Shown here piece by piece: positions 9,518 to 32,896 of a DNA stretch of 64,000 nucleotides (the stretch's first letter is position 1; every line of letters begins with the position of its first letter). The notes beneath the pieces were generated by a model, which was not told the DNA's origin, did no database searches, and saw only the letters and a list, made by a program, of their open reading frames with translations. Location: the NCBI GenBank assembly GCA_001184205.1, contig LBMP01000006.1, forward strand, positions 186,001-250,000, in the 5' to 3' direction. The DNA is from Desulfocarbo indianensis (lineage in GTDB: Bacteria; Desulfobacterota; Desulfarculia; Desulfarculales; Desulfarculaceae). The position numbers were made by a program, and so were the translations under genes.

Positions 9518-11461
9518 GTGACGCCGGGGGGAAGGGATATCTCTTCCCCCCTTCAACCCAGCGAAGGCCCCTCAAGCCCCCGCCGCCAGAGGCCGAAACG
9601 GATTGCGTGCGATTTGTTTAACAAGGCTTTGGACATAGCGGTAGCCGCCGCGGCGATGATCATGGCCCTTTATCACCTGGGCGATGTTTATTTTTCCATT
9701 GCCGGCACCATCCAGCACCGCATGATCCACCTGCTCCTGGCCCTGGTCCTGATTTTCCTGAGCGCGGCCAAGGACGGCAAGCGGGCCTGGCCCTATTTCC
9801 TGCTCATGGCCGCGTCCCTGGCCACGGTGGGCTATCTCTGGCTGAACCTGGAACAGCTCCTGTTCAACCAGGGCTTTCCCCGCACCCCGGACATTGTGGT
9901 CGGTTTCGCCGTTCTTTTCATCGTGCTCACCGCCTGCTGGCGCAGCTTCGGCTTCATCCTGCCCATGATGGCTCTCTTGTTGCTGGCCTACGGGTTCTGG
10001 GGGCATTACCTGGGCGGGCCCATCCTGTCGGTGGGCGAGGTGATCACCACCGTGGCCCTGACCTTTGGCTCCTATGATCTCTGGGGCAGCATCCTGGTGA
10101 TTTCCGCCAATATCATATTTTTGTTCGTCCTTTTCGGCGGCATGCTGGGCGGGCTGGGGGCCAACGGCTTTTTCCTGGAGCTGGGCAAGCTGGTGGGCCA
10201 TCATTCGCGCAGCGGGCCCGCCATGACCGCGGTGGTGGCCAGCGCCCTCATGGGCACCACCACCGGCCAGGCCACCCCCAACATAGCAGTGACCGGGGCC
10301 TTTACCATTCCACTGATGAAACGGGTGGGCTATAGGCCGGCGGTGGCCGCCTCGGTGGAGGCGGCGGCTTCGGGCGGCGCCCAGATCATGCCGCCCATCA
10401 TGGGGGCCGGCGCCTTTGTCATGGCCGATCTTTTGGGCACCACCTACGGCGAGATCATCGTCGCCGCCACTTTGCCCGCGCTGCTCTATTTCTTTTCCGT
10501 GGGGCTTTTCGTGCATTTCCACGCCCTGAAAAGCAACGTGGCCCTGGTGCGCGAAAAGCCGGATTTGGCCAAGCTGGCCTGGTTCGCGCCCCTGTTCGTG
10601 GTGCCCATAGGCTGCATCCTGGGCCTCCTGTTCATGGGCTACCCGGAGATGTTCGCGGCGTTTTGGGGCATTGCGAGCCTCTTGGCTTTGAGCTTCTTGT
10701 TCCCGGCCACCCGCCCCACCTGGCGGCAGGTCAGGGACGGCTGCCTGAACGGGGCCTTGACCGGGGCCAAGGTGGCCGTGGCCTGCGCCACCCTGGGGCC
10801 CATCATCGCCCTGGTCACCAAGACCGGCCTGGGGCTCACCATAGGCTATTCGGTGGAGGCCTGGTCCCACGGCAGCCTTTTCCTGGCCCTGATCATCTGC
10901 ATGGGCTGCGTCATCGTGCTGGGCCTGGAAGTGCCCACGGTGGCCGCCTACCTGCTGGCCGCCCTGGTGGCGATTCCGGCCTTGCAGCGCCTGGGGCTGG
11001 AGCCCATCCAGGCCCACATGTTCGCCTTTTATTTCGGGGCTTTTTCCGCCTTAACCCCGCCGGTGGGCATGGCCGCCATAGTGGCCTCGCGCATAGCCAA
11101 GGCGCCCTATATCCGCACGGCCTGGCATTCCATGGCCGCGGCTGGAGCCGGCTTCCTCATCCCCTTTGTGTTCGCCTATAACGGGGCCCTGCTGCTGGCG
11201 CCGGGCTACAACTGGTGGGACGCCGCCTTTGCCGCGCTTCTGACCATGGCCGGCCTGGTCATCTTTCAGGTGGGCTTCGTGGGCTATTTCGTGACCCACT
11301 TGAAAACCGCCGAAAGGGTACTCTCGGTCCTGAGCGGCCTGGGTTTCATGGTTTTCGCCGCCTCGGGAAATTACCTGGTGCTGTTGCCCGCGGCCCTGGT
11401 GCTGTGCGCGGTCCTGGCCCTGAACCTCAAAAGGAGCCGGCCGGCCAGCGAGGCTTTTTAA
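9518..11461 (+). CDS. TRAP transporter fused permease (DctQM-type)
   Basis: A 647-residue polytopic inner-membrane protein that combines the small (about 4 helices, residues about 30-170) and large (about 12 helices) TRAP subunits, the usual arrangement for TAXI systems. The large-subunit signature region is visible around GTTTGQATPNIAVTGAFTIP and the proline-rich FSALTPPVGMAAIVAS. It uses a sodium or proton gradient to import the ligand delivered by the TAXI receptor. The GTG start at 9518 has no good Shine-Dalgarno, and a start a few codons downstream is possible. The end overlaps a 10-bp tandem repeat. Confidence 0.87.
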   Translation: MTPGGRDISSPLQPSEGPSSPRRQRPKRIACDLFNKALDIAVAAAAMIMALYHLGDVYFSIAGTIQHRMIHLLLALVLIFLSAAKDGKRAWPYFLLMAASLATVGYLWLNLEQLLFNQGFPRTPDIVVGFAVLFIVLTACWRSFGFILPMMALLLLAYGFWGHYLGGPILSVGEVITTVALTFGSYDLWGSILVISANIIFLFVLFGGMLGGLGANGFFLELGKLVGHHSRSGPAMTAVVASALMGTTTGQATPNIAVTGAFTIPLMKRVGYRPAVAASVEAAASGGAQIMPPIMGAGAFVMADLLGTTYGEIIVAATLPALLYFFSVGLFVHFHALKSNVALVREKPDLAKLAWFAPLFVVPIGCILGLLFMGYPEMFAAFWGIASLLALSFLFPATRPTWRQVRDGCLNGALTGAKVAVACATLGPIIALVTKTGLGLTIGYSVEAWSHGSLFLALIICMGCVIVLGLEVPTVAAYLLAALVAIPALQRLGLEPIQAHMFAFYFGAFSALTPPVGMAAIVASRIAKAPYIRTAWHSMAAAGAGFLIPFVFAYNGALLLAPGYNWWDAAFAALLTMAGLVIFQVGFVGYFVTHLKTAERVLSVLSGLGFMVFAASGNYLVLLPAALVLCAVLALNLKRSRPASEAF

Positions 11462-11470
11462 GGCTTTTTA
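11451..11470 (+). repeat. 10-bp tandem repeat spanning the permease stop
   Basis: AGGCTTTTTA occurs twice head to tail, and the TAA stop (11459-11461) spans the junction. It is probably a slippage duplication. Confidence 0.8.
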
Positions 11471-11547
11471 CCCGCGGGCGTTGTTGAGCGCGCCGTTGCC
11501 GTGCTGATATCCGCCGCCGACGCGGCGCTGGGAAAGGACCTCTCCTC

Positions 11548-13083
11548 ATGCTCATGGGCAAAGCCCTCACCCGCAGCGCGGGCCTGTTTCCCGATAAAAC
11601 CGCCGTGATTCACGGCGGCCAGGCGATGAGCTACCGCGAGTTCAATTCACGGGTGAACCGCCTGGCCGGCGCGGCCCAGGCCCTGGGCCTGGCCAAGGGC
11701 GACAAGATGGCCATCCTGGCCAAGAACTGCCCCGAATACCTGGAGACTTATCACGCCCTGGCCAAGATCGGGGTCTGGCTGGTGCCCGTCAATCACCGCC
11801 TCAAACCCAGGGAGGTCAATTACCGCCTGACCCACAGCCAGACCAGCGCCCTGGTGATCGAGCCCGAGTTCGTCGGGGTGCTCGGCCAGTTGGACGCCGA
11901 GGTGGGCGAGCGCCTGGCGGGAAGGGTGCTGGTCCTGGGCCAGGGCAAAGCCCCTCAGGGCCTTTTATCCTATGAAGCGGCCCTGGCCCAAGCCGCTGAT
12001 GAGGAGCCCGAGGCGGACTTGCACCACGAGGACACCTTGTTCCTGGGCTATACCGGGGGCACCACCGGCCGCTCCAAGGCGGCCGTCATCTCCAACCGGG
12101 CCATCGTGGTGGGCTATCTTTACAAGCACCTGGAGTACGGCTACGACCAGGACGAGGTGGCGCTTTATCCCGGCCCCTATTGGCACACCGCGCCCCGCAA
12201 TTGCTGCCTGGCCTTTTATTTCGGCGGCTCGGTGGTGGTCAGCCGGGATTTCAGGCCCCGCGAATACCTGGAGCTGGTGCAGCGCCATGGGGTCACCTCC
12301 AGTTTCCTGGTGCCCACCATGTACAAGGCCATCCTGGATCTGCCGGATCAGCAAAAGTACGACACCTCCAGCCTCAGGGTATTGAACAGCGGCGGCGCGC
12401 CCATGCCGGTGGAGTTGAAGCGCCGGGTGGTGGAGCGTTTCGGGCCCATTCTTTTCGAGCACTACGCTTCCACCGAAACCCTGATCCTCTGCACCATAGG
12501 CGGCCAAGCCATGCTGGAGCGGCCCCGCTCGGTGGGCCGCCCGGTTTACGACGTGCATATCAAGCTGGTGGACGACTACGGACGGCAGGTGCCCCAGGGC
12601 CAGGTGGGCGAGATATTCATCAAGGCTCCGTCTCTGTTCAGCGGCTATTACCGGGACGAGGAAAAGACCCAGCGGGCTTTCCGGGACGGCTGGTTCACCC
12701 TGGGCGACATGGGCCGCTTTGACGAGGACGGCTATCTTTACATCGTCGACCGCAAGATCGACATGGTGATAAGCGGCGGGGAGAATATCTACCCCAAAGA
12801 GGTGGAGGAGGTATTGAACTCCCACGCCAAGGTGTCCGAAGCGGCGGTGGTGGGCGTGCCCGACGCCCACTGGGGCGAGTCCCTCAAGGCCCTCGTCATC
12901 CTGCAGCCGGGGCAGCGGGCCAGCGAAGAGGAAATAATGGCCTTTTGCGGCCAACGCCTGCCGGACTACCTGAAACCCAAGAGCATCGAGTTCGTGGAGG
13001 ACCTTCCCAGAAGCCCCATGGGCAAGGTGCTCAAGCGCAAGATCCGCGAGCAATACTGGGGCAACCGCGATACCAAGGTTTGA
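11548..13083 (+). CDS. AMP-dependent acyl-CoA ligase
   Basis: A 511-residue adenylate-forming enzyme that converts a carboxylic acid, ATP and CoA into acyl-CoA, AMP and PPi. The P-loop motif is GYTGGTTGRSK (about residues 168-178), followed by the A5-like ASTET, the hinge region YLYIVDRKIDMVISGGENIY and the C-terminal catalytic lysine in SPMGKVLKRKIRE. Length is typical of medium/long-chain or aromatic acid ligases. The Shine-Dalgarno AAAGGA precedes the ATG. It lies 86 bases after the TRAP permease in the same direction, so its substrate is probably the acid that the transporter imports. The exact acid is not known. Confidence 0.87.
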   Translation: MLMGKALTRSAGLFPDKTAVIHGGQAMSYREFNSRVNRLAGAAQALGLAKGDKMAILAKNCPEYLETYHALAKIGVWLVPVNHRLKPREVNYRLTHSQTSALVIEPEFVGVLGQLDAEVGERLAGRVLVLGQGKAPQGLLSYEAALAQAADEEPEADLHHEDTLFLGYTGGTTGRSKAAVISNRAIVVGYLYKHLEYGYDQDEVALYPGPYWHTAPRNCCLAFYFGGSVVVSRDFRPREYLELVQRHGVTSSFLVPTMYKAILDLPDQQKYDTSSLRVLNSGGAPMPVELKRRVVERFGPILFEHYASTETLILCTIGGQAMLERPRSVGRPVYDVHIKLVDDYGRQVPQGQVGEIFIKAPSLFSGYYRDEEKTQRAFRDGWFTLGDMGRFDEDGYLYIVDRKIDMVISGGENIYPKEVEEVLNSHAKVSEAAVVGVPDAHWGESLKALVILQPGQRASEEEIMAFCGQRLPDYLKPKSIEFVEDLPRSPMGKVLKRKIREQYWGNRDTKV

Positions 13084-13300: not shown

Positions 13301-15100
13301 GTGACCCCAAAGCGTCCCGCGCTGATTGTGGTGCCGCCGCTTATTTGTCCGGCCTCACCACCGCCCTTGGCGGCCCAAGCCATGGCCTGCCTGCAAGAGG
13401 CCGGAGCCGGGGCCGCTGTTTACGACGCCAACCTGGATTTTCTCAGCGGCCATCTCTTCAGGCCGGAGGCCCTGGATTCATTTCTGCCGCTCATCGCCCA
13501 GCGCCAGAGCCGGGGCGATTACCAGGACCTGGCCGACCCGGCCTTGACCCGGCTCCTGGCGGACGCCACCGGAGATGCCGTCTGGATGACCGGCCTGGCC
13601 GCGCAAACGCCGGACGCCCTGGCGACGATGCGGGGAGAGCGGTTTTACGATCCCGCCTCCCTGGTGGCCGCGCGCCGGGTTTTGGAAGCCTGTTACGGCT
13701 TGGCCTCCCTGGCCTATTATCCCCTGAGGCTGCACTGGCACGGCCTGCACCACCCAGAGGCGCGCGACTGGCAGGAGGCCCTGGCCTTGGCCTCCGGGCG
13801 CGGGCATCCCTTCGGGGTTTTGTCCGCCTCCCTGGTGGAGAAGCTCGCGGAGGCGGAGCATCTGGTTTTTTGCCTGGAAAAGCCGGACCAGGCGCTGGCG
13901 GCCCTGGCTCTGGGAGCGGCCGCCCGGCGGGCGCGGCCGGAGCTTGCCATTATTTGCTGGGGGCCCGGCCTCAAGGCGCCCGCGCCGCCTTCTGATCTGG
14001 TCTGGCTGCCAGGCCGCGATCCGGGCGCGCTCTTAAAGGCCTTGGGTCTCCCCGCGCGCCAAGCCGGCGCGCCCGGGGAACTGGCCGCTGAAGGCTATCT
14101 GGCGCCGGAAGCGGTCCGGCAGGAGATGCGGGCGATAGACCTGGGAGCCGCGCCGCCCACGCCCGAGGAATTGAAAAGCCTCCGCGACTCCGGAGCGCGC
14201 GCGGTGCGCTGGCTGGTGCCGGAGACAGACGAGTCTTCGCTTCTGGAGGCGTCGTTGCGCGCGGCTTCGCGGGCCGGCCTCTGGAGCCAGGTGGAACTGC
14301 CCTGGGGCCCGGAGCATCCCGTGGCCCAGTGGTGCGCGGCCAATCCCAACCTGGCCCATTCGCTGCTGGTGAACGCCGGGGCCGGGAGCTGGTTCAGCGG
14401 CCCGGCTTACGATTCCGCCGCGCCCGAACCCAGGGTGGGCGTCTTGGAGCCCATGCCCGGCCGGCCCTTGTGGCGCTGGCTGGAAGCGCCGGCCCATTTG
14501 CTGCTTTATCTGCGCCGGCACGGGGCCAGGTTCCTCAGAACCCATCGCGTGCGCGCCGACGGCAGCCTCTACCGTTTGGGCGAAAATGTCGCCTATACCT
14601 TTTTGCATTACCCCGATCTCGATCAATGGCACCTGGAGCGCATCCTGAAGTTGATCGTGTCGGCCGGCAAGGTCAAGCCGGATTGGCTGCGCCACAACCT
14701 GGAGCGGTCGTTCCTCATAGCCCACGCCGTGGAAGAAGGGGTGATGGTGGCCACGGAAACCCTCAAGCACCCCCGGCCGGAGTATATTCAAAAAGTGCGC
14801 GAACGCACCGGTTTGGACTTCTCCAGACACCTGGAGCGCGGGTATATAGTGGTGCGTCCCGAGTACCGCGGCCTGGGGGTGGGCGATGAGCTGGTCAGGG
14901 GATGCCTGGCCAGGGCGCCGGGCTACAAGACTTTCCTGGCCATAGCCGCGGAAAACAAGATCGCCCAGGAACTGACCGCCCGCCATGGTTCGCGCATGCT
15001 CACCCGCTACTATAGCCATGAAATGGGCAAGGAGGTGGAGATCTGGACGCCCAGGGACCAGGAGGACCTGCCGGAGGCCCGCGAGGGGCAATGCGAATAG
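13301..15100 (+). CDS. B12-binding/radical-SAM-like protein without cluster cysteines, fused to a GNAT domain
   Basis: A 599-residue protein of unknown function. Residues about 7-230 follow the layout of the N-terminal B12-binding part of radical SAM enzymes: PALIVVPPLICP and a YDANLDFL strand end, then FYDPASLVAARRVLEACYGL and LAYYP, then ARPELAIICWGPGL. The cobalamin DxHxxG motif and the radical SAM CxxxCxxC motif are both absent, so this half is probably a non-catalytic relic or a binding domain. The C-terminal part (about 440-590) is a GNAT acyltransferase with the acetyl-CoA loop VRPEYRGLGVGDEL. I chose GTG 13301 because GGAAGGA lies 11 bases upstream; a TTG at 13208 is possible. Its end overlaps the ATP-grasp gene by 10 bases. 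Confidence 0.65.
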   Translation: MTPKRPALIVVPPLICPASPPPLAAQAMACLQEAGAGAAVYDANLDFLSGHLFRPEALDSFLPLIAQRQSRGDYQDLADPALTRLLADATGDAVWMTGLAAQTPDALATMRGERFYDPASLVAARRVLEACYGLASLAYYPLRLHWHGLHHPEARDWQEALALASGRGHPFGVLSASLVEKLAEAEHLVFCLEKPDQALAALALGAAARRARPELAIICWGPGLKAPAPPSDLVWLPGRDPGALLKALGLPARQAGAPGELAAEGYLAPEAVRQEMRAIDLGAAPPTPEELKSLRDSGARAVRWLVPETDESSLLEASLRAASRAGLWSQVELPWGPEHPVAQWCAANPNLAHSLLVNAGAGSWFSGPAYDSAAPEPRVGVLEPMPGRPLWRWLEAPAHLLLYLRRHGARFLRTHRVRADGSLYRLGENVAYTFLHYPDLDQWHLERILKLIVSAGKVKPDWLRHNLERSFLIAHAVEEGVMVATETLKHPRPEYIQKVRERTGLDFSRHLERGYIVVRPEYRGLGVGDELVRGCLARAPGYKTFLAIAAENKIAQELTARHGSRMLTRYYSHEMGKEVEIWTPRDQEDLPEAREGQCE

Positions 15101-15987
15101 GCGTCATCACCGCCCGCGACGCTGATTATCACCCCAACCGGCGCTTCTTGGAGGCCGGCAACGCCCTGGGCTTGCAGGTAAGCCTGTTACATCCCTTCAA
15201 GCTGTGGAGCGGCCTGACCGCGGGCGGGCCCCTGGCCGCGGGCGCGGCGGATTTGGGGGGGCTGTCCGTGGTTCTGCCCAGGGTGGGCGCCACCATCAGC
15301 GACTATACCCTTACCCTGCTGCGGCAGCTGGAATTGATGGGGCTGCCCTTGCTCAACGGGTCGCGGGCCATCGCCGTCTGCCGCCATAAATACTATTCAT
15401 TGCAGGTGCTTTCCGCGGCCGGCCTGCCGGTGCTGGAGACCTATCTGGTCAATTCGCTGCCAGGCTACGCCGACGCCAAAAAGAGACTTGGCGGCCCGCC
15501 GCTGGTGATCAAGCTGGTCAGCGGCCGCCAGGGCTCGGGCGTGTTCCTGGTTAACGATGACGATCCAGACCCCCTGGTTGACGGCAGGAGGCTCGGCCAG
15601 GTCATGGAGCAGCGCCAGGGCGTCCTGGCCCAGCGCTTCCTGCCTCCCCAGGGCAGGCGCGACGTGCGGGTGCTGCTCATGGGCGGGGAGGCGGCCGGAG
15701 CCATGGAGATCACGCCCGCTCCGGGCGAGTTCCGGGCCAACGTCCATCTGGGGGGTCAGGGACGGGTGCTCTCGGCAAAGGGGCGCTTGCTGGAGCTGGC
15801 GAAGAAGGCCGGGGAGGCCGTCGGGCTGGAGGTGGCCGGGGTCGACCTGATGCAGGACGCCGGCGGCGCCTGGTGGCTGGGCGAGGTGAATTTCACCCCC
15901 GGCTTCCAGGGGCTGGAGCAGGCCACCGGGCAGGATATTGCCACGCGAATACTGGAATTCGCCTTGACCAAGGCCGCGTCGGCTTAA
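15091..15987 (+). CDS. RimK-like ATP-grasp ligase
   Basis: A 298-residue ATP-grasp enzyme expected to join a carboxylate to an amine through an acyl-phosphate. Residues 1-85 form the N-terminal alpha/beta lobe, then come NGSRAIAVCRHKYYSLQVLS, the ATP-binding strand PLVIKLVSGRQGSGVFLV (about 136-153) and the metal ligands Asp252, Glu265 and Asn267 (GVDLMQ, GEVNFTPGF). Similarity is to RimK/LysX/GshB-type ligases. The ATG lies inside the last codons of the GNAT gene (ATGCGAATAG), so translation is coupled. A GNAT plus ATP-grasp pair recalls N-acetylated dipeptide or peptide-tag synthesis, but the product is unknown. Confidence 0.82.
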   Translation: MRIGVITARDADYHPNRRFLEAGNALGLQVSLLHPFKLWSGLTAGGPLAAGAADLGGLSVVLPRVGATISDYTLTLLRQLELMGLPLLNGSRAIAVCRHKYYSLQVLSAAGLPVLETYLVNSLPGYADAKKRLGGPPLVIKLVSGRQGSGVFLVNDDDPDPLVDGRRLGQVMEQRQGVLAQRFLPPQGRRDVRVLLMGGEAAGAMEITPAPGEFRANVHLGGQGRVLSAKGRLLELAKKAGEAVGLEVAGVDLMQDAGGAWWLGEVNFTPGFQGLEQATGQDIATRILEFALTKAASA

Positions 15988-16145: not shown

Positions 16146-17879
16146 GTGGTTACCATAAAGAAGTTCCGTCGCCTGCTTCTTAATTTGCCGGCCGCCGCTC
16201 TTTTGGCGGCCATCGCCGTTTTGGCGGTTTGGGCTGCCCCCGCCCAGTCCGCCGGCAACGGCATACTCAAAATCGGCGTTTTGGAAGAGCCCAAAAGCCT
16301 TAACCTTTGGCTGGCCTCCGACGCCTGGTCCAACCGAATTTTGAGTCTGATGTATCAGCCCCTGTACCTGCGCGAACCCAACAGCATGGAACTGGTTCCC
16401 TGGCTGGCGGCCGAGCAGCCGGATTTCGATCACAAGACGCTCACCTGTACGGTGAAGCTGCGTCCGGCCAAATGGTCAGACGGCAGCGACTTCACGGCCG
16501 AGGACGTGGTTTTCACCGGCCATATGATCTACCTGTATCAAATGCCGCGGCATTACTCCAAATGGAAGTTCATCGAAAAGGTCGAGGCGGTGGACAAACA
16601 CACCGTGCGCTTTGTCTTGAACAAGCCCATGGCCATATTCCTTTCCCGCACCTTGACCACGCCCATCGTGCAAAAGAAGCAGTGGGCTTCCTTGGTCAAG
16701 CAGTTGGAGGGCTCGGAAAGGGCCCTGCAGGAAATATTGCAGCATGATTTCGAGGAGCCGTCGGTGACCGGGCCCTTCGTGGTGGATAAGTGGAAAAAGG
16801 GGGTGTTCGTCTACATGAAGAAGAACCCTCACTTTTTCGGCCAGGGCCAGACCATCGGCGGCCATAAGCTGGGGCCCCACATCAAGGGCATTATATTCAA
16901 GATATACGGCACCGCCGACGCGGCCATCCTGGCCCTGCGCAAGGGCGACATAGATTTCTATTGGAACGACATTCAGGCCGGCTACCTGAAAAGCATAGAA
17001 AACGACCCCGATATCAAGCTCTTCACCAACACCAAGAGCGGGGTTTACTATCTGGGCTTCAACCTGCGGCGGGCGCCCATGGACGACGTGGCCTTCCGGC
17101 GGGCGGTGGCCACCCTCATCGCCAAGGAATTCATTATCAAGCGCATCTTGCAGGGCTACGGCGAGGTGCTGCACTCCATGATTCCGCCGGGCAACGAGGT
17201 GTTCTACAACCCCAACGTGCCCAAGCACGGCGCCGGCCTGGACCGCGCCCAGCGCGTCAAGGCGGCCTATGAAATATTGAGCAGGGCCGGCTACACCTGG
17301 GAGACCCCGCCGGTGGACGCCCAGGGCAAGGTGCAAAAGGCCCGCGGCATCAAGACGCCCGACGGCAAGCCCCTGCGGGAGGTGGTCATCCTGACGCCGC
17401 CGGCCGACTATGACCCCCACCGCGCCATGAGCGGCCAGATGATCCAGGAATGGCTCCGCGAGGTGGGCATCCCCGTGGTTTCCAGGCCCATGGCCTTTGG
17501 GGCGCTCATCCAAACCGTCAAAACCCAGCATGATTTCGATTGCTTCGTGCTGGGCTACGGCAAGCTGGCCCTGGACCCCGGCTATCTGCGGGCCTTTTTC
17601 CATTCCTCCCAGGACAAGCCCAAGGGATGGAACATGTCGGGCTACAACAATCCCGAGTTCGATCAATTGGCCACCGAATCCGATGAAACCATGGACACGG
17701 CCAAGCGCCGGGACCTGATATTCAAGATGCAGGAGATATTGATGTCGGAGGTGCCCTACATTCCCTTGTATAATCCGGTTTTGGTGGAGGGGGTGCGGGC
17801 CGACCGTTTCACGGGATGGGTGCCCGCCCTGGGCGGCATAGGCAACATCTGGTCCCTGTGCGAAATCCAAGCCAAGTGA
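16146..17879 (+). CDS. ABC transporter substrate-binding protein, oligopeptide/nickel family
   Basis: A 577-residue periplasmic receptor of SBP family 5 (DppA/OppA/NikA-like). The GTG start at 16146 is supported by AGGGAG about 7 bases upstream and by the signal peptide that begins there (VVTIKKFRRLLLNLP, ending near AQSA at residue 35). A much longer upstream reading frame is not needed. Family features include LKIGVLEEPKSLNLW, KWSDGSDFTAEDVVFT and YYLGFNLRRAPMDDVAFRRA. It heads a five-gene operon (receptor, two permeases, two ATPases). The Fur box in the promoter hints at an iron- or metal-linked ligand rather than plain peptides, but this is inference. Confidence 0.87.
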   Translation: MVTIKKFRRLLLNLPAAALLAAIAVLAVWAAPAQSAGNGILKIGVLEEPKSLNLWLASDAWSNRILSLMYQPLYLREPNSMELVPWLAAEQPDFDHKTLTCTVKLRPAKWSDGSDFTAEDVVFTGHMIYLYQMPRHYSKWKFIEKVEAVDKHTVRFVLNKPMAIFLSRTLTTPIVQKKQWASLVKQLEGSERALQEILQHDFEEPSVTGPFVVDKWKKGVFVYMKKNPHFFGQGQTIGGHKLGPHIKGIIFKIYGTADAAILALRKGDIDFYWNDIQAGYLKSIENDPDIKLFTNTKSGVYYLGFNLRRAPMDDVAFRRAVATLIAKEFIIKRILQGYGEVLHSMIPPGNEVFYNPNVPKHGAGLDRAQRVKAAYEILSRAGYTWETPPVDAQGKVQKARGIKTPDGKPLREVVILTPPADYDPHRAMSGQMIQEWLREVGIPVVSRPMAFGALIQTVKTQHDFDCFVLGYGKLALDPGYLRAFFHSSQDKPKGWNMSGYNNPEFDQLATESDETMDTAKRRDLIFKMQEILMSEVPYIPLYNPVLVEGVRADRFTGWVPALGGIGNIWSLCEIQAK

Positions 17880-17916: not shown

Positions 17917-18888
17917 ATGAAAAGATTTATTATCAAGCGTATGGCGCAGGTCGTGGTGGTCCTGTTTTTGATCCTCACGGTGCTGTTCGTGCTTTTCCGC
18001 CTGGCCCCCGGCGACCCGGTGGAGCGCATGGTGGACCCCAACCTCACCCTCGAGGAAGCGGAACACCTGGTGGAGCAACTGGGCCTCAAGGAGCCGATTC
18101 TCACCCAGTACGGCATCTATCTGAAAAACTTCGCCATGGGCCACTTCGGCCACTCGTTTCATTATGGCCAGCCCGTGGCCGAGGTCATCTGGGAGAAGCT
18201 GCCCAACACCATATTGCTCTTCACCACGGCGGTTATCCTGGCCGCCCTGGTGGGCGTTTCCTGGGGCAAGATCGCGGCCTGGTCCAAGGGAAAATGGAAG
18301 GATTTGGCCTTCACCGTGGCCGCCCTGGTGACCCACACCCTGTTCCTGCCCTGGCTGGCCCTGCTCCTGGTCTGGTTCTTCGGCTACCGCCTGGAATGGT
18401 TCCCCATAACCGGCATGATGTCCGAGGAGGTCTGGCTGGACCCGGACACCGCCTGGTGGCAAAAGGCCTGGGACGTGGGCTATCACATGATGCTGCCGCT
18501 GCTCACCCTGTTCCTGATTCACTTCGGGTCCTATCTGTTGGTGATGCGCAGCTCCATGCTGGACACCCTTAAAGAGGACTACATCGTCACCGCCAGGGCC
18601 AAGGGGCTTTCCGAAAAGGCCATCCGCAACCGGCACGCCGCGCCCAACGCCATGCTGCCGGTGGTGACCAGCGTGGGACTGTCCCTGGCCTTTTCCATAA
18701 ACGGCGGCGCGCTCACCGAGACCGTGTTCTCCTGGCCTGGCATCGGCCGGGAACTGGTCTTCGCCGTGAGCCACAACGACTACCCCCTGGCCCAGGCCTG
18801 CTTCCTGTTGATCGCCACCGTGGTGCTGTTCTCCAATGTGGTGGTGGACGTGCTTTATGCTTATCTGGACCCCAGGATTCGGTATTAA
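17917..18888 (+). CDS. ABC transporter permease, DppB/OppB type
   Basis: A 323-residue inner-membrane subunit with about six helices. The N-terminus MKRFIIKRMAQVVVVLFLIL and the RLAPGDPVERMV segment are hallmarks of the DppB/OppB family. The cytoplasmic coupling loop is near residues 220-250 (DYIVTARAKGLSEKAIRNRH). It forms the translocation channel with the next gene product. The gene follows the receptor by 37 bases and precedes the second permease by 15 bases. No anomaly is seen. Confidence 0.92.
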   Translation: MKRFIIKRMAQVVVVLFLILTVLFVLFRLAPGDPVERMVDPNLTLEEAEHLVEQLGLKEPILTQYGIYLKNFAMGHFGHSFHYGQPVAEVIWEKLPNTILLFTTAVILAALVGVSWGKIAAWSKGKWKDLAFTVAALVTHTLFLPWLALLLVWFFGYRLEWFPITGMMSEEVWLDPDTAWWQKAWDVGYHMMLPLLTLFLIHFGSYLLVMRSSMLDTLKEDYIVTARAKGLSEKAIRNRHAAPNAMLPVVTSVGLSLAFSINGGALTETVFSWPGIGRELVFAVSHNDYPLAQACFLLIATVVLFSNVVVDVLYAYLDPRIRY

Positions 18889-18903: not shown

Positions 18904-19833
18904 ATGAATCAGCAAGCGGCCATGGACTTGCGTCAAGCCCGGCGTTCCCTGTGGCGGGAGCGCCTGGCCGAGGATTGGCGGGTGTTCCGCCGCAATCCCC
19001 TGGGACGGATCGGGCTCACCCTCTTGATAATGTTCGGTCTCATGGCGGTCTGTTCCTACATTCCGCCCATGATCAACCCCATGTACAACCCCATGACCGG
19101 GGTGGACCCCCACATCATGGCCTCCACCGGGCCCAGCGCCCGGCATTGGCTGGGCACCGATTTCATGGGCCGCGATATTTTCGCCCAGCTCCTGGCCGGG
19201 GCCAGGGTGGCCTTCATGGTGGGGGTGAGCGCGGCTTTCATGGCGGTGGTCTTGGGCACCGCCCTCGGCATGACCGCGGGCTACATGGGCGGGCTCACCG
19301 ATACCCTGCTCATGCGGGCGGCGGACATGATAATGGTGATGCCCACCCTGCTGGTGGTGCTGATGCTGGCCGCGCTTTTCGGCCAGCTCAATATCTGGAC
19401 CATCGTGCTGATGATCGCCCTTTTCCGCTGGCCCGGCGTTTCGCGGGTGGTGCGGGCCCAGACCTTGTCCCTGAAGCAAAGGCCCTTCATCGACGCGGCC
19501 CGGGTGGCGGGCGCCAGCCACCCGCGCATCATCTTCCGCCACATCATGCCCAACGTGCTGCCTTTGGCCTTTCTTTACATGACTTTCAGGGTAACCTCGG
19601 CCATCGTCATCGAGGCGGCCCTGGCCTTTTTGGGCTTCGGCGACCCCGGAACCGTGAGCTGGGGCATGATGCTGCAATGGGTTTGGAAGACCGGCCACAT
19701 GTTCCAGGCCATGTATTGGCTGCTGCCGCCGGGCCTGTGCATTTCGTTGATCACCTTGTCTTTCTACATGCTGGGCCGGGCCATGGACGAGGTCCTGGAC
19801 CCCCGCCTGAGAGACGAAACCTCGGCTGGCTAA
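18904..19833 (+). CDS. ABC transporter permease, DppC/OppC type
   Basis: A 309-residue partner permease. A cytoplasmic N-terminal stretch with RRNPLGRIGLTLLIMFGLMA precedes the first helix, as usual in DppC. The extracytoplasmic HWLGTDFMGRDIFAQLLAGA motif and the coupling loop FIDAARVAGASHPRIIFRH are characteristic. The gene sits between the first permease (15 bases) and the first ATPase (3 bases), so the operon is tight. No odd features. Confidence 0.92.
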   Translation: MNQQAAMDLRQARRSLWRERLAEDWRVFRRNPLGRIGLTLLIMFGLMAVCSYIPPMINPMYNPMTGVDPHIMASTGPSARHWLGTDFMGRDIFAQLLAGARVAFMVGVSAAFMAVVLGTALGMTAGYMGGLTDTLLMRAADMIMVMPTLLVVLMLAALFGQLNIWTIVLMIALFRWPGVSRVVRAQTLSLKQRPFIDAARVAGASHPRIIFRHIMPNVLPLAFLYMTFRVTSAIVIEAALAFLGFGDPGTVSWGMMLQWVWKTGHMFQAMYWLLPPGLCISLITLSFYMLGRAMDEVLDPRLRDETSAG

Positions 19834-19836
19834 AAT

Positions 19837-20787
19837 ATGACGCTCTTGGACGTACAAAATCTGAGCATCGGCTACCAGACCGCCGAAGGCCTGTTGCAGG
19901 CGGTGGAAGGGGTCAGCTTCAGCCTGGAGGCCGGGCAATCCCTGGGCCTGGTGGGCGAGAGCGGCTGCGGCAAGACCACCATCGGCATGGCGCTCATGGG
20001 CCTGCTGCCGCCCAACGGGCGCATAACCGGCGGCCACGTGCTTTTGAACGGGCGCGACCTGCGGGAGCTGACCGAGGAAGAGATGCGCCAGGTGCGCTGG
20101 AAAGAGGTGGCCATGATCTTCCAGGCCGCCATGAACGCGCTCAATCCCGTGCAGCGGGTCGGCGATCAGATGATCGAGGCCATCGTGGAGCACCAGCCGG
20201 TGAGCAAAGCCCAGGCCCGGCAAAGGGTGGAGGGGCTTTATCAGCTGGTGGGCATGCCGGTGGAGCGCATCGACGATTATCCCCATCAATACTCGGGCGG
20301 CATGAAGCAAAGGGCCATCATCGCCATGGCCCTGGCCAACAAGCCCAAGCTCATAATCGCCGACGAGCCCACCACCGCCCTGGACGTGATCGTGCAGGAT
20401 CAGATATTGCAGGAGACCAAGAACCTGCAACATGAGTTCAACATCGGCATAATCTTCATCAGCCACGACATATCCATCGTGGCCGAGGTATGCCAGACCA
20501 TCGGCGTGATGTACGCCGGCCAGTTGGTGGAGATAGGCGGCGCCGAGCAGGTCTTCTACGACCCGCGCCACCCCTACACCAAGGCCCTGGTGGCCTCTTT
20601 CCCCACCCTGGCCGGCGAGCGCAAGGAACTGAAACCCATTCCCGGCGAGCCGCCCCATTTGATCAACGCCATCATGGGCTGCCGTTTTTGCGACCGCTGC
20701 CCCCGTTCCGAGGCCCAGTGCAAGCTGGACCGTCCGGCCTGGCAGCAGGTGGCGGCCGGCCATCACGTGCTTTGCGACCATTGCTGA
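19837..20787 (+). CDS. ABC transporter ATPase, DppD/OppD type
   Basis: A 316-residue ATP-hydrolysing subunit. Walker A is GESGCGKTT (about residues 40-48), the signature is YSGGMKQR, and Walker B is LIIADEPTTAL. The C-terminal oligopeptide-family extension carries four or more cysteines (GCRFCDRCPRSEAQC and CDHC), a cluster often seen in OppD/DppD proteins and able to hold an iron-sulfur cluster in some. It pairs with the next ATPase to power the two permeases. Start ATG lies three bases after the permease stop. Confidence 0.92.
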   Translation: MTLLDVQNLSIGYQTAEGLLQAVEGVSFSLEAGQSLGLVGESGCGKTTIGMALMGLLPPNGRITGGHVLLNGRDLRELTEEEMRQVRWKEVAMIFQAAMNALNPVQRVGDQMIEAIVEHQPVSKAQARQRVEGLYQLVGMPVERIDDYPHQYSGGMKQRAIIAMALANKPKLIIADEPTTALDVIVQDQILQETKNLQHEFNIGIIFISHDISIVAEVCQTIGVMYAGQLVEIGGAEQVFYDPRHPYTKALVASFPTLAGERKELKPIPGEPPHLINAIMGCRFCDRCPRSEAQCKLDRPAWQQVAAGHHVLCDHC

Positions 20788-20820
20788 GGGGTTAGAGGGC
20801 CCGTGGAGAGGCAAGCCAAC

Positions 20821-21858
20821 ATGAGTTCAGCCCAAGAAACCATCCTGGAGCTTCGCCAGGTGACCAAGCGCTACCAAACCCGGGGCAATATTCTGGGCCG
20901 CGGCAAAAAGGAAGTGCTGGCCCTCAACCGGATTTCCTTGCAGGTGCGGGCCGGGGAGATCTTCGGGCTGGTGGGAGAAAGCGGCTCCGGCAAGACCACG
21001 GCGGGCCGGCTCATCGTGGGCCTGGAAAAGCCCGACGAGGGCGGCATCTTCCTGAACGGCCAGGACATCGTGGGCCTCCAGGGAAAGGCGCTCAGGCGCT
21101 ACCGCCGCCAGGTCCAGATGGTTTTCCAGGACCCCTATCAATCCTTCAATCCCCAGGTCTCCATCATGGACAGCGTGGGCGAGCCCCTGCTCACCCAGGG
21201 CGTCGCCAAGGGCGTCGAGCGCGAGCAGATGGTGCTGGCCGCCCTCAAGGAAGCCGGGCTTTCGCCGGCCGAAAGCTATGCCTTCCGTTTCCCCCACCAG
21301 CTCTCCGGCGGGCAGCGGCAAAGGGTGGCCATCGCCCGGGCCATGATCTTGGAGCCCTCGCTATTGGTGGCCGACGAGCCCACCAGCATGCTGGACGCGT
21401 CCTACTCGGCCCAGATTTTCGACTTGCTTTTGGGGGTGCGCGGCCGGTTGGGCGCCACGGTGCTGTTCATCACCCACAGCCTGGCCTCGGCCCGCTATCT
21501 TTGCGACCGGGTGGCCGTGATCTACCGCGGCAACCTCATGGAAATCGGCCCGGCCCAGGAGGTCATCCGGAACCCCCGCCACCCCTACACCCAGGCGCTC
21601 CTGGACGCCACGCCCAAGTTCGGCCGCTGCGAGGACATCCCCCGCTTCAACACCCTTCTGCGGGCGGAGCGGCCGGCGGCCGACTCCGGGGTGGGTTGCG
21701 GATTTTTCCGCCGTTGCGGCCTGGCCCAGCGGGCGCGCTGCTCGATGGAAGCGCCGGAATTCCGCGCCATGGGCGAGGGGCACCTTTGCGCCTGTCATTA
21801 CGCGGAACCGGGGCCGGCCCAGGCCGATCAGGGCGGAGAATGCCACCTGGGCGCATGA
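20821..21858 (+). CDS. ABC transporter ATPase, DppF/OppF type
   Basis: A 345-residue second ATPase of the transporter. Walker A is GESGSGKTT, the signature [15 protein letters not shown] and Walker [12 protein letters not shown]. The C-terminal family extension contains [17 protein letters not shown] preferred ATG 20821 (MSSAQE), with GGAGAGG about 8 bases upstream, to a GTG at 20803. It ends the operon; 89 bases later a new unit begins. Both ATPases being present, with intact motifs, means that the transporter is complete. Confidence 0.9.
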
Positions 21859-21947: not shown

Positions 21948-24900
21948 ATGAAGAAAGCCATCAAGAATTTTTTCCAGATTCAGCCGGAGGAAATGGCGCT
22001 CTTCCTCTGGTCGGCGGCGCTTTTATTCCTGATCCGCGGCTCCAACCTGCTGTTCGACAATTTCGCGGAAACCGCCTTTCTCAAGCGATTCGGCGTGGAG
22101 TACCTGCCACTGGTCTACATGGCCAACGCCTTCGCCACCTTCATCCTCATGGGCTTCATGGCCGGCCTGATGCGCAAGGTCAGCAGCGCCAAGCTTTTGG
22201 CCTACACGCTGTTTTGCTGCGGGGCCATGGTGGCGGCGCTGCGGCTGCCGGTTTACCTGCATATTGATTACGTGTATCCGGTTTTATTTCTCTTGAAAGC
22301 CCAGTTCGAGGCCTTGTTCGCCCTGTTGTTCTGGAACCTGGCCAACGATCTCTTTAACACCCGGCAAAGCAAGCGCATCTTCCCCCTTATCGCGGCCGGC
22401 GGCGTTCTGGGCGCCATCGTGGGCAGCTTCGGCACTCCCCAGTTGGCCAAGCTCATACGCATGGACAATCTGATGTTCGCCTACCTGGTGAGCACCGCCA
22501 TCGCCGCCGCGGTGGGCCGGCAGATGGACATAATTTTCCCCACCTTGCCCATAAGCGAACGCAGAGCCAGGAAGGGCCAGCCCAAGACGTCGTTCTTCCA
22601 GGAACTCAAGCAGGTGTGGCCCATGATGAAGGAGTCCACCCTGGTCAAGATTCTGGTGCTCCTTACTTTCTTGCCCAACGTCCTGATACCCATCATGAAC
22701 TACCAGTTCAACTTCGCGGTGAATCAGGCGTTCGGCACCGAACATGGGCTCATTCAGTTCCTGGGCTATTTCCGGGGCGCGCAAAACGTCATCAGCCTCG
22801 TCATCCTTTTGTTCGTGGGCAAGCTTTACAACCGCTGGGGCCTGCCCGTGGCCTTGATGTTCCATCCCTTCAACTACGTCCTCGCCTTTATCGGCTTCCT
22901 CTGGCGTTTCGACGTGGTGGCGGCCATCTACGCCCGCATCACCACGGTGGTCATCCGCTTCACCATCAACAACCCGGCCCGGGATATCCTCATGGGCCTG
23001 TTCCCGCCCCAGATGAGGCCGGTGATGCGGCCATTTTTGCGGGGCACCGTGGTGCGCATCGCCACCTTGCTGGGCTCCGGTTTCATTCTCCTGGCCGAGG
23101 GCGTGATGCACCCGCGCTATTTATCCATCATCGGCATCGTGTTCGGCTTGATGTGGGTGGCCACCAGCATTTGGCTCAAGAGGGTCTATTCCGACATCCT
23201 GCTGGATCTGGTGGCGCAGAACGTTATCGACCTGCGCTCTCTGGAAGAGCGCGATCTGGGCCATATGTTCGGGGACAAGCGCGCCCAGGATCGGCTGCTG
23301 CGCGCCTGCAGCGACGCCCAGGGGCAGGCTTGCGTTTTATACGCCGAGATGCTGAAAACCCAAAAGGTGCCCGAGGCCGACCGGCATTTGCTGTCCTTGA
23401 TCAAGGACCGCGACCCCCGCACCGCCTCCGAGCTGGTGCGGTTGATCTCACCCGAGGCCGGCGAGGAGGCCATCAAGGTTTTCGAGGAACTGGCCCAGAC
23501 CGGCCAGCCCGAGCTGAGCGTGGCCATGGCCGGCGCGGCCGCCCGTTTCCCCAAGGAGCATTCGGAAGGATTCCTGCGCGGGCTTTTAAAGGAAAACAAT
23601 CCGCCGCTGGTGCGGGCCCAGGCCATGGGCGGCCTTTATGAGGAAAAGCCCGAACGCTACGATCAGATCATTCACGGCTGGCTGCATTCCGAGGATCCCG
23701 CGGAGCGGCGGGCCGGCGCCCTGGCCGCCGGCGCCTCGGGCAACCGGCAATTCATCAAGCCGCTGAGGGCGCTTCTCAACCGCGAAAAAGAAAGCCCGGT
23801 CATCGGCGAAACCCTGTTGGCCCTGACCCGCCTGAACGACCCCAACGGGCGGGCCACGGTGCTGGAGCGGCTGGCCAAGCGCCCCAACCAGGTGCCTCTG
23901 GCGGTGCTGGAAACCCTTCCCGTGGAGGACCAGGCCACGGCCAGGGCCTTCATCCGCATGCTGGGCGACCCGAACCCGGAAAGGGCCGGATTGGCCCAGC
24001 GCAAGCTGAGGACCGCGCCGGACTTGGACCTGGAGCTCTTGATCGAAGGCTTGGCCACGCCGCACCGCCAGGTGCGCGAGGGCCTGTATCAGCTCATGGA
24101 GTCCTTGAAGATCAGCAACCAGGACGTAATCAACTTCACCCGCGCCCACCTGCAAAAAGCCTATGGCCATCTCCTGGAGGCGCGGGAGGTGGAGAAGGCT
24201 TTCGCCGAGTCCGCGGAGCGCGATCTTCTGGCCCAGCATTTGCGCGACAAGCAGGAGGCGCTGGTCGATAACATCCTGCGGGTGCTGGCCACCCAGGATC
24301 ACAGCGGGCAACTGAGAATGGTCTTGCGGGGGTTGGAATCCAATGACGACCGCCTGCGCTCCAACGCGTTGGAGGCACTGGACGAATTGGTGGGGCATTC
24401 CTTGAGCGAGTCCATGGTGCCGCTTTTGGAGAAAGCGGACCCGGCCCAGCGCCTGGCGGTGGGCCGCCGCATTTTCAAGCTTCCCAAGGACCTGGGCGGC
24501 CGCGACGAACTGATTCGGCGCTTCCTGGCCTTGGATGATGATTGGCTGGCCCAGTATCTGATTTTGGTTTTATGTTCCAAGCTCGAAGACCCGCCCCTGG
24601 ATTCCCTGGAATGCGAGCGCCTCATGGGTTCGGCCCACAGCCACGTGTGGGTGCTGGCCGGCATCCTGCGCGCGGCCGGCGAAAAGTCTCAACCAGTGGA
24701 GAAGGCTGTCATGCAAGAGGCCACCAACCTTACCGACAAGATAGTGCTCTTACGGGGCATGGAAATCTTCCAAGGCCTCACGGTGAAAGAATTGGCCGCC
24801 ATCGCCTCCTTGTGCGAGGAACAGGAGTTCCCGCCCGGCCAGACCATAATCAGCGAAGGCGAGGTGGGCGACAACATGTTCCTGGTGGTGGACGGCGAGG

Positions 24901-25178
24901 TGGTGGTCAGCAAGAACGCTGACGACGGTTGCAGCGTGGACCTGGCCACCATGGGCGTGGGCGATTATTTCGGCGAAATGGCGCTTTTCGACAACTCGCC
25001 GCGCTCGGCCACGGTTACCGCCAAGAACAGCACCCGCTGCCTGGTGCTGCATAAGCGCGAGTTCAACGAGGCGGTGCACGAATACCCTCAGGTGGCCTTG
25101 CAGATGTGCACCGAGCTGAGCCGCCGCTTGCGCCTGCTGCACAACAAGATTCAATCCATGCCGGTGTGCATGACCTAG
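21948..25178 (+). CDS. Nucleotide-translocase-like transporter fused to HEAT repeats and a cyclic-nucleotide-binding domain
   Basis: A 1076-residue three-part protein. Residues 1-420 hold about 12 membrane helices in the ATP/ADP-translocase/MFS style (FLIRGSNLLFDNFAETAFLK near the start). Residues about 440-920 are helical HEAT-like repeats (for example DPAERRAGALAAGASGNRQF). Residues about 930-1065 form a CRP-type domain with the phosphate-binding cassette FGEMALFDNSPRSATV, including the Glu and Arg that contact cyclic nucleotides. It probably sits in the inner membrane with the sensor in the cytoplasm. An adenylate cyclase gene lies 5.6 kb downstream. The transported solute is unknown; nucleotide exchange is only a family-based guess. 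Confidence 0.78.
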   Translation: MKKAIKNFFQIQPEEMALFLWSAALLFLIRGSNLLFDNFAETAFLKRFGVEYLPLVYMANAFATFILMGFMAGLMRKVSSAKLLAYTLFCCGAMVAALRLPVYLHIDYVYPVLFLLKAQFEALFALLFWNLANDLFNTRQSKRIFPLIAAGGVLGAIVGSFGTPQLAKLIRMDNLMFAYLVSTAIAAAVGRQMDIIFPTLPISERRARKGQPKTSFFQELKQVWPMMKESTLVKILVLLTFLPNVLIPIMNYQFNFAVNQAFGTEHGLIQFLGYFRGAQNVISLVILLFVGKLYNRWGLPVALMFHPFNYVLAFIGFLWRFDVVAAIYARITTVVIRFTINNPARDILMGLFPPQMRPVMRPFLRGTVVRIATLLGSGFILLAEGVMHPRYLSIIGIVFGLMWVATSIWLKRVYSDILLDLVAQNVIDLRSLEERDLGHMFGDKRAQDRLLRACSDAQGQACVLYAEMLKTQKVPEADRHLLSLIKDRDPRTASELVRLISPEAGEEAIKVFEELAQTGQPELSVAMAGAAARFPKEHSEGFLRGLLKENNPPLVRAQAMGGLYEEKPERYDQIIHGWLHSEDPAERRAGALAAGASGNRQFIKPLRALLNREKESPVIGETLLALTRLNDPNGRATVLERLAKRPNQVPLAVLETLPVEDQATARAFIRMLGDPNPERAGLAQRKLRTAPDLDLELLIEGLATPHRQVREGLYQLMESLKISNQDVINFTRAHLQKAYGHLLEAREVEKAFAESAERDLLAQHLRDKQEALVDNILRVLATQDHSGQLRMVLRGLESNDDRLRSNALEALDELVGHSLSESMVPLLEKADPAQRLAVGRRIFKLPKDLGGRDELIRRFLALDDDWLAQYLILVLCSKLEDPPLDSLECERLMGSAHSHVWVLAGILRAAGEKSQPVEKAVMQEATNLTDKIVLLRGMEIFQGLTVKELAAIASLCEEQEFPPGQTIISEGEVGDNMFLVVDGEVVVSKNADDGCSVDLATMGVGDYFGEMALFDNSPRSATVTAKNSTRCLVLHKREFNEAVHEYPQVALQMCTELSRRLRLLHNKIQSMPVCMT

Positions 25179-25395: not shown

Positions 25396-26163
25396 TTAAA
25401 GCAGGCGCGCGAAGTCCTTGAGCGCCGCCCACACCGCTTGCCGGGTTTGGTCCAATCTGACCGGGTCCACGGCCAATTGCGGCGTCAAATACAAGTCCGT
25501 GTTCAGTTCGATCTGCAGGGACGACTTGCCTTGCTCCCGCAGAAGGCCGCCGTAGTGCTTGGTGATGTAGCCGCCGGAATAGGGTTGGTTGAGGGAAACG
25601 CTCAGGCCCTGGGCTTCCAGGGCGCGGGCCAGCCCCCTGATGAGCGAGGCGGGGCAGGTGGCCTCGTCCTTGCCGGGGATGGCTTCGCCATCGGGACCGC
25701 CGCGATTGCCCAGGCTAACGTCGCACCTGACCCGGCCGGGGTCGGGGGCCTCGCTGGGGCCCACGCCGTCCATGGAATGGCAATCCAGGAGCAGGCGCAG
25801 GCCGGGCAGGGCCAGATTGTCGGTCAGTTCCCGGTGATAGGGCCGGTGATAAGCTTCCACCCGCTGGCGGGTTTCCCTTGGATCGGGCTCCTGGCCGAGC
25901 TTGAAGACCCGGCGTCCGAAATAATCGGCCAGGGCGATGACCCCCCTGTCGTCATAGCGGTCCGGCCTGCGGTTCAGGTCCGCCACCAGGCGCGACCAGC
26001 GGGCGGCCACGCAGGCCAGGGACGGCAGCCCGCTGAAAATCTCCCTGGTGCCATGGTCCTCGGATTCCGCCACTTGGGCGGGATTCAGGGCCATGGTATC
26101 GGCGATGAAAGGCGGCACCTCTATGCCGCAATGGGGAATGGAAAGCAGCAGGGGGAGAACCAT
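25396..26163 (-). CDS. N-formylglutamate amidohydrolase family protein
   Basis: A 255-residue cytoplasmic hydrolase expected to split N-formylglutamate or a related N-acyl amino acid. Visible family marks are SIPHCGIEVPP at the N-terminus, SRLVADLNRRPD, EAYHRPYH, LLLDCHSMDGVG and the C-terminal ELNTDLYL. The His and Asp/Glu residues in these blocks are the probable zinc ligands. It stands alone on the minus strand, with no other histidine-degradation gene in sight, so the substrate may differ from the classical one. It converges with the preceding plus-strand gene; the 217-base gap 25179-25395 shows no gene and no clear terminator. Confidence 0.85.
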   Translation of the reverse strand: MVLPLLLSIPHCGIEVPPFIADTMALNPAQVAESEDHGTREIFSGLPSLACVAARWSRLVADLNRRPDRYDDRGVIALADYFGRRVFKLGQEPDPRETRQRVEAYHRPYHRELTDNLALPGLRLLLDCHSMDGVGPSEAPDPGRVRCDVSLGNRGGPDGEAIPGKDEATCPASLIRGLARALEAQGLSVSLNQPYSGGYITKHYGGLLREQGKSSLQIELNTDLYLTPQLAVDPVRLDQTRQAVWAALKDFARLL

Positions 26164-30776: not shown

Positions 30777-30805
30777 CCCCGGAGAGACTGAGCAGGATCA
30801 TGACC

Positions 30806-31876: not shown

Positions 31877-32896
31877 ATGGTGATCGCCTTTATCATGGAC
31901 CCCTTGGAGTCTATCGAGCCCCTCAACGAAACCACCAGCCATCTGATGTACGAATGTAACGAGCGCGGGCATACGGTTCTGTTCCTGGAACCGCACGATC
32001 TCTACGTTCGCAACAGCCGCCTGGTGGCCCGCATGCGCAACGTGACTTTACCGCCGGGGCTGGGCATGCAGGAGTATTGGCAGCGGGCCATAGCCTGTTT
32101 GAAAAGGGACGAGCTGATATTCGAGGAAATTACCGACATAGACGCGGTCTTTCTGCGCAAGGACCCGCCGCTGATCTACGAGTGCATGGAGTTCCTCACC
32201 CACGCCAGCGATCATGTGTTCATCATCAACAGCACCCAGGGGCAGATGATCGCCAACAGCAAGCTGTATCTGCTCAATTTCCCGGAGATCATCCCGGAAA
32301 CCCACATCTCGCGCGATCCCCAGCGCCTGAGAAAGATCATCGACGAGTTCGGCGGCACTATGGTGGTCAAGCCCCTGTCGCGCTCCAAGGGGGAGGGCGT
32401 CATCAAGGTCAGCATGCAGGACCGGGACAACCTGAACAGCCTGATTCATTACTATGTGCGCTCCTTTGAGCCCTACCCGCGGCGCGACGCGGTGATGGTG
32501 CAGGAATACCTTTCCCAGGTGAAAAAAGACGGCGACGTCCGCATCCTGCTTTTGAACGGCGAAATCTTGGGAGCCATGCGCCGCATACCCGCCGAGGGCG
32601 ACTTCCGCACCAATATCCATGCCGGGGCCACGCCGGCCAAGCACGTCATCACCGAAAGCGACAGGCGAATCTGTCGCACCGTGGCTCCCAGGCTCATCAG
32701 GGACGGCCTTTATTTCGTGGGTATAGACATCATCGGTGATAAATTGATAGAGATAAATTGCGTGAGTCCGGGGGGCATCCCCCGCATCAACCGCTTGGAC
32801 GGATTGCACATTGAGGCCAAGGTAATCGATTTCGTGGAGTGCAAGGTCGCGGAGATGCGTTCACCGGGCCGGAAAACGGCGGTGGACCTGGCTTAG
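31877..32896 (+). CDS. gshB: Glutathione-synthetase-like ATP-grasp ligase
   Basis: A 339-residue ATP-grasp enzyme resembling bacterial glutathione synthetase, which joins gamma-glutamylcysteine and glycine. Typical blocks are IAFIMDPLESI, VFLRKDPP, FPEIIPETHISRD, MVVKPLSRSKGEGVI, FRTNIHAGATPAK and the metal-site strand FVGIDIIGDKLIEINCVSPG. Length is close to the family norm (about 315-340). No gamma-glutamylcysteine ligase gene is nearby, so the true substrates are open. The Shine-Dalgarno is GGGGGAT. The stop TAG (32894-32896) is also the first three bases of palindromic element B, so the native C-terminus may have been altered by its insertion. Confidence 0.85.
   Translation: MVIAFIMDPLESIEPLNETTSHLMYECNERGHTVLFLEPHDLYVRNSRLVARMRNVTLPPGLGMQEYWQRAIACLKRDELIFEEITDIDAVFLRKDPPLIYECMEFLTHASDHVFIINSTQGQMIANSKLYLLNFPEIIPETHISRDPQRLRKIIDEFGGTMVVKPLSRSKGEGVIKVSMQDRDNLNSLIHYYVRSFEPYPRRDAVMVQEYLSQVKKDGDVRILLLNGEILGAMRRIPAEGDFRTNIHAGATPAKHVITESDRRICRTVAPRLIRDGLYFVGIDIIGDKLIEINCVSPGGIPRINRLDGLHIEAKVIDFVECKVAEMRSPGRKTAVDLA

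Follow-up and report, generated by a model that had tools for sequence, protein, structure and literature searches.

The 64,000-nucleotide stretch of Desulfocarbo indianensis DNA analysed here (the window) encodes a protein in which a GNAT acetyltransferase domain is fused to the remains of a TsrM-like cobalamin-binding/radical-SAM enzyme. Its N-terminal part of about 425 residues derives from such an enzyme, through an ancestral radical-SAM/GNAT fusion, and has lost the cysteine motif, and the domain has been maintained under selection, as judged from dN/dS. Together with the RimK-type ATP-grasp gene that overlaps it, the fusion gene is the front of a wider operon, apparently undescribed, to which both genes are linked across genomes. 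That the fusion has been reused as a non-catalytic substrate module, in a pathway of small-compound ligases and an importer, is a proposal to which we give an even chance. The features are listed in Table 1.

Table 1. Fusion gene, its domains and the neighbouring genes in the window.
Feature	Position	Strand	Basis or remark
Acyl-CoA synthetase-like AMP-binding enzyme	11548..13083	+	PF00501 E 2.5e-83; directly upstream of fusion
Cysteine-less radical-SAM-like/GNAT fusion	13301..15100	+	599 aa; GTG 13301 to TAG 15100
Fusion residues 1-428	13301..14584	+	Cobalamin-binding-like Rossmann with helical insert, then predicted partial radical-SAM-type barrel without Cys loop (AlphaFold2)
Fusion residues 430-599, GNAT acetyltransferase	14588..15097	+	Acetyl-CoA motif RGLGVG; PF00583; structure matches
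RimK-family ATP-grasp amide ligase	15091..15987	+	298 aa, ATG start; TIGR00768, PF08443, PDB 7qyr and 5zct families
Substrate-binding protein (SBP), Opp/Dpp/Nik-type ABC importer	16146..17879	+	PF00496 E 2.4e-66
ABC permease, DppB/OppB type	17917..18888	+	Family models
ABC permease, DppC/OppC type	18904..19833	+	Gene family and order in conserved loci
ABC ATPase, DppD/OppD type	19837..20787	+	Family models
ABC ATPase, DppF/OppF type	20803..21858	+	Gene family and order in conserved loci
Membrane protein, TLC/NTT-like transporter with HEAT repeats and C-terminal cyclic-nucleotide-binding domain (NTT-HEAT-cNMP)	21948..25178	+	1076 aa; PF03219, PF13646, PF00027
N-formylglutamate-amidohydrolase-like (FGase)	25396..26163	-	PF05013 E 6.7e-45
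GshB-like ATP-grasp ligase	31877..32896	+	PF02955 E 4.6e-54; only strong PF02955 match in genome

The gene coordinates given by an earlier, sequence-only reading were confirmed, as was the 10-nt overlap in which the ligase start codon lies inside the last codons of the fusion gene (ATGCGAATAG). The motifs FYDPASLV, LAYYP and YRGLGVG are all present in the fusion protein and, as that reading had also claimed, DxHxxG and CxxxCxxC are missing, with neither DxHxxG nor any Cx3-4Cx2C arrangement found along the window protein. The cysteine triad, searched as CxxxCxxC or CxxxxCxxC, is absent from the other cysteine-less fusions of the family too, and the alignment shows that the region is deleted. 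DxHxxG, on the other hand, is also lacking in relatives with intact cysteines; its absence therefore marks the lineage rather than decay and is not diagnostic. The sole Pfam match of the fusion protein is to the GNAT family PF00583 (residues 462–563, E 1.9e-7, 31.8 bits vs a cut-off of 20.7), with no match to Radical_SAM (PF04055) and none to any Pfam family within residues 1–430. The C-terminal domain has both the GNAT fold and the R/QxxGxG/A acyl-CoA motif, and in the whole-protein model it matched the structures of NatC, Ard1 and RimI at Z 15–17.

AlphaFold2 modelled the whole fusion protein from 16 homologues with a pLDDT of 81 and a pTM of 0.80. As the Foldseek list of the whole protein was dominated by GNAT structures, residues 1–428 were modelled separately (pLDDT 75.8, pTM 0.70). 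VIA realignment of this second model placed cobalamin-binding domains at the top (4jgi, Z 11.8; 7xcn, Z 11.4; 6oxd, Z 11.1) and matched TsrM (6wtf) at Z 10.4 over 233 residues spanning positions 4–375, that is, across both domains, so that the model appears to combine a cobalamin-type Rossmann fold with a radical-SAM-type barrel, the latter only partial. Plain Foldseek returned nothing for this model at E <= 0.001, and the structural case is therefore made by the VIA realignment and the sequence alignment together; TIM-barrel enolases proposed by Foldseek (rmsd about 20) were discarded. Since CheY-like and other Rossmann proteins were also among the VIA matches, the Rossmann part alone is unspecific, and it is the predicted span of the TsrM match, along with the sequence relatives, that carries the radical-SAM assignment. 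A phmmer search of the window protein against PDB sequences found no relative of the N-terminal part.

Relatives of the fusion were collected in two ways. Full-length relatives came from 297 surveyed genomes of the phylum, and 43 loci from 84,980 named genomes, which were scanned with a GNAT alignment by means of a single peptide pattern; all 43 are titled Desulfobacterota or unresolved Deltaproteobacteria/Proteobacteria. In phmmer alignments, residues 1–430 of the window protein align to proteins that score above the Pfam Radical_SAM cut-off, their B12-binding matches being mostly sub-threshold. One of these relatives (L033), with 770 aa, combines a Pfam-positive radical-SAM domain (GCYWGKCAFC) and a weak B12-binding match with the same GNAT domain, and together with L042 it matches PF04055 at E about 1e-18. 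Intact fusions, which in the named genomes lie at L068, L070, L074, L076 and L078, carry CYWGKC(T/A)FC with Cx4Cx2C spacing, and the window protein can be aligned with them from end to end; the best NCBIfam model of intact relatives is TIGR03975, though under its cut-off. Cysteine-less fusions were found in the same family as the window (L029, L030, L031) and in the named genomes (L048–L056, L058, L060). The existence of intact radical-SAM/GNAT fusions in other Desulfobacterota indicates that the window protein descends from such a fusion by decay and does not merely resemble one by chance. The B12-binding radical-SAM layout that had been read from the letters of the N-terminus, and the B12/barrel similarity expected of its predicted structure, are thus borne out by the phmmer relatives and by the AlphaFold2 model.

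The decay follows a size series, from intact proteins of about 760–790 aa through forms of about 640–690, 599 and about 411 aa to a stand-alone GNAT. The window protein is without the cysteine loop and roughly half of the barrel. In the alignment, the dead forms lack the GFPTE stretch and the first units of the barrel as well as the cysteine loop; what they retain is the PP...DA strand region at the N-terminus, the final strands of the barrel and the residues W..G.WNH...HS. Seven positions (W304, W328, N329, H330, H353, S354, and W391) are kept in dead and intact members and scarcely in six other B12-radical-SAM proteins, and the barrel half that remains, with these family-specific residues, is most readily interpreted as a module for substrate binding or docking. 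The window copy has WSQ instead of WNH (N329 to S, H330 to Q); with these two residues lost and a long branch, this copy may have an altered pocket.

Judged by substitution rates, the cysteine-less fusions are still under purifying selection. The NG86 dN/dS of the dead part in same-family pairs was below 1 in every comparison; the closest pairs ranged from 0.25 to 0.47, and wider comparisons reached 0.74. As the larger dS values are partly saturated, the result leans mainly on the close pairs. The GNAT domain gave 0.16–0.69, the dead part being higher. In the GNAT tree, the dead forms require three changes, vs a mean of 13.1 after shuffling, and the cysteine-less fusions make up at least two groups, one of them joining the window with seven other dead Desulfarculaceae-type rows (support 100/96). 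Within the family of the window, the GNAT domain is present in 14 of 20 genomes, lying inside a long reading frame in 10 and standing alone in four; stand-alone GNATs also occur in related genomes, including those of genus g4 of this family, and among the named genomes in Geothermobacter hydrogeniphilus and strain NaphS2.

The ligase gene belongs to the RimK family, as it scored 156.6 bits against the TIGR00768 cut-off of 143.4. Two specific assignments were rejected, that of ribosomal S6-glutamate ligase (NF007764, 146.5 bits vs a cut-off of 331) and that of glutathione synthase, excluded by its equivalog cut-off. The survey of genomes that the sequence-only reading had called for found RimK within 322 bp of the fused gene in 15 of 16 fused loci, the sixteenth (L074) starting at a contig edge, while the strongest RimK matches in the 297 genomes lie in the same operon, with weaker ones (L111–L114) outside it and, in L108–L110, an unfused radical-SAM gene in place of the fusion. 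Across loci, the radical-SAM-like domain and RimK were both present in 22, both absent in 11 and discordant in three (22/1/2/11; Fisher p 1.4e-6); this association reflects few independent events, with four supported pairs and a sign test that is not significant. Of the earlier proposal, therefore, these results support the repurposed B12/radical-SAM scaffold fused to a GNAT and its linkage to the ATP-grasp gene, but not the two-step synthesis of an acylated peptide or tag with both enzymes in a fixed ratio.

The neighbours that recur across loci, which the sequence-only reading had missed, comprise an Opp/Dpp-type importer (SBP, two permeases and two ATPases), the GshB-like ligase and the NTT-HEAT-cNMP protein, and all these core partners are present in the window. 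The GshB-like gene adjoins RimK in many relatives and lies 16 kb apart from it in the window; in L105, from the family of the window, the GNAT-RimK pair, the FGase-type gene and the GshB-like gene are found side by side. The NTT-HEAT-cNMP gene was found near the GNAT in 20 of 43 loci, and the window also holds a class III nucleotidyl cyclase gene (30,800–31,723). Some lineages add a PP-loop protein, a third ATP-grasp enzyme or an FGase-like gene. The PP-loop protein, of about 380 aa and with a CxxCxxC-like cysteine cluster, adjoins the GNAT in 14 of 43 loci (e.g., L034, 9947–11,083); it showed no Pfam or PDB sequence match and no counterpart in the genome of the window. At 29,141–30,745, two genes upstream of the GshB-like ligase, the window encodes a protein of 534 aa whose SSGIDS PP-loop motif resembles that of asparagine synthases and which matched neither Pfam nor NCBIfam models. 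The third ATP-grasp enzyme, biotin-carboxylase-like, is found at the distal end of the operon in those loci whose radical-SAM gene is intact (L042, 1949–3418; L038, 8431–10,020). The FGase-type gene lies beside the GNAT, the GshB-like gene or the operon in some relatives (L105, L058, L038), and in the set of 43 loci it was linked in three. Upstream of the fusion, TRAP-type permease-like and acyl-CoA-synthetase-like genes (9518–13,083) run in the same direction, in an order kept in Desulfarculaceae relatives only; the second of these enzymes is possibly the source of acyl-CoA for the GNAT. A search of the open-access literature found no description of this gene combination.

Regarding the product, ATP-grasp enzymes like RimK and GshB form amide bonds, GNATs acylate amines and SBP-dependent ABC systems import. 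No match to the GshA families PF04107 and PF04262 was found in the genome, which is 98.65% complete; glutathione itself is therefore an unlikely product, and the substrate of the GshB-like ligase is probably not gamma-glutamylcysteine made by enzymes of these two families. A search for a precursor peptide in 31 loci detected no conserved small ORF beside the operon, a result from which fast-evolving or distant ORFs would escape, and most recurring small ORFs nearby resemble shadow ORFs of the adjoining genes; with this same reservation, a RiPP reading is unsupported. The lack of a GshA of the tested families and of a conserved precursor ORF favours a non-ribosomal product that is free and is taken back after synthesis, and the conserved importer, the GshB-like ligase and their partners favour a small compound that is transported rather than a tag on proteins.

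On this basis we propose, tentatively and with clearly less than even confidence, that Desulfobacterota hold an undescribed pathway for a small, non-ribosomal, N-acylated and amide-linked compound, made by RimK-like and GshB-like ligases with a GNAT and recovered by an Opp-type importer, in which the GNAT-fused cobalamin radical-SAM enzyme was deprived of its metal centre on at least two occasions and survives as a pseudoenzyme that presents the substrate. In the explanation to which we give an even chance, the ancestor would have been a fusion of a cobalamin-type radical-SAM enzyme with a GNAT N-acyltransferase, acting with the RimK-like and GshB-like ligases, beside an Opp/Dpp importer, on a small peptide-like compound of non-ribosomal origin. 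In Desulfarculaceae and in a second group, deletion then removed the iron-sulfur/SAM part and left the cobalamin-domain-like Rossmann fold together with the half of the barrel on the substrate side; these would act as a non-catalytic binding or docking module, which might offer the substrate both to the GNAT in the same polypeptide and to the RimK ligase translated along with it. RimK and GshB would form amide bonds to amino acids, the GNAT would then acylate an amine, and the compound would exit the cell, to be retrieved, alone or as a complex, by the SBP-dependent ABC system. The product, the order of the steps and the scaffold role are what we infer from the gene set; the direction of transport and any exporter are assumptions.

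Among the alternatives, it is unlikely that the system tags proteins, the RimK-like ligase adding amino acids to a cellular protein and the GNAT acylating its terminal amine, with the transporter linkage being secondary. There is precedent in RimK, which acts on ribosomal S6, and RimI, which acts on S18, and both the RimK-family membership of the ligase and the structural proximity of the GNAT domain to N-terminal acetyltransferases (NatC, Ard1, RimI) agree with it, but no conserved substrate gene accompanies the pair, the S6-ligase score falls short of its cut-off, and the linkage to the Opp/Dpp importer and to a GshB-type small-molecule ligase is strong and recurrent. Quite unlikely, too, is a metallophore-like system, in which the ligases and the GNAT would make a peptide-type chelator that might leave the cell through the NTT-like protein and would return through a Nik/Opp-type ABC system, as in staphylopine-type operons. 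The layout, with synthesis genes, a membrane protein and an Opp-family importer, is the one expected, and the nickel families NikA, CntA and Opp2B appear among the sub-threshold matches of the SBP and permeases; however, no SBP or permease model reaches its cut-off, the peptide SBPs Opp4A and GsiB outscore NikA, and NTT-like proteins are not known to export such compounds. We regard as improbable a salvage or remodelling route that imports peptides or glutathione-like thiols to be reworked by the ligases, the GNAT and the amidohydrolase-like enzyme: SBP-dependent ABC systems are importers, the SBP scores as GsiB-like and an FGase-like gene is nearby, but ATP-consuming amide formation would be unusual in such a route, and the FGase linkage is patchy. 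Finally, that the N-terminal part is a functionless, decaying remnant and that the GNAT domain alone matters is very improbable, as the stand-alone GNATs and the higher N-terminal dN/dS that speak for it are outweighed by the long reading frame kept in 10 of the 14 GNAT-positive genomes of the family, by dN/dS values below 1 and by family-specific residues kept across two groups.

The proposed pathway, in which a retired enzyme serves as scaffold, would be of interest for two reasons. Radical-SAM pseudoenzymes are little documented, and one literature search on them found nothing relevant; as intact, cysteine-less, strongly reduced and lost versions occur beside the same partner genes, a non-radical role of the domain can be tested by swap or deletion. 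In addition, the operon recurs with clear boundaries in anaerobic sulfate reducers and their relatives, and it is a realistic target for metabolite discovery.

All the components come from known superfamilies, and their combination, with the retained cysteine-less form, matches no curated system tested. The cobalamin-dependent radical-SAM C-methyltransferases of the TsrM type and of TIGR03975 (rSAM_ocin_1) share the cobalamin-binding-like Rossmann fold followed by a radical-SAM-type barrel, whereas the window protein lacks the cysteine motif, has a partial barrel, is fused to a GNAT and is accompanied by no detected precursor peptide. The window ligase matches the family of RimK, MptN and LysX over its whole length and above the TIGR00768 cut-off, but it reaches no named equivalog cut-off, overlaps a GNAT fusion gene and belongs to a transporter operon. 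Synthesis of N-acetylglutaminylglutamine amide (NAGGN) also brings together an acetyltransferase and an ATP-grasp ligase, in a GNAT/ATP-grasp fusion (TIGR03103); membership was rejected at 21.2 bits vs 569, and the domain arrangement differs. The GAK system has an ATP-grasp enzyme as well, to which the resemblance is distant (TIGR04356, 43.5 bits vs a cut-off of 300), and membership was likewise rejected. Finally, the operons for the opine metallophores staphylopine and pseudopaline place small-molecule synthesis genes beside an Opp/Nik-type importer, as the window does, with biosynthetic enzymes that are unrelated to those described here.
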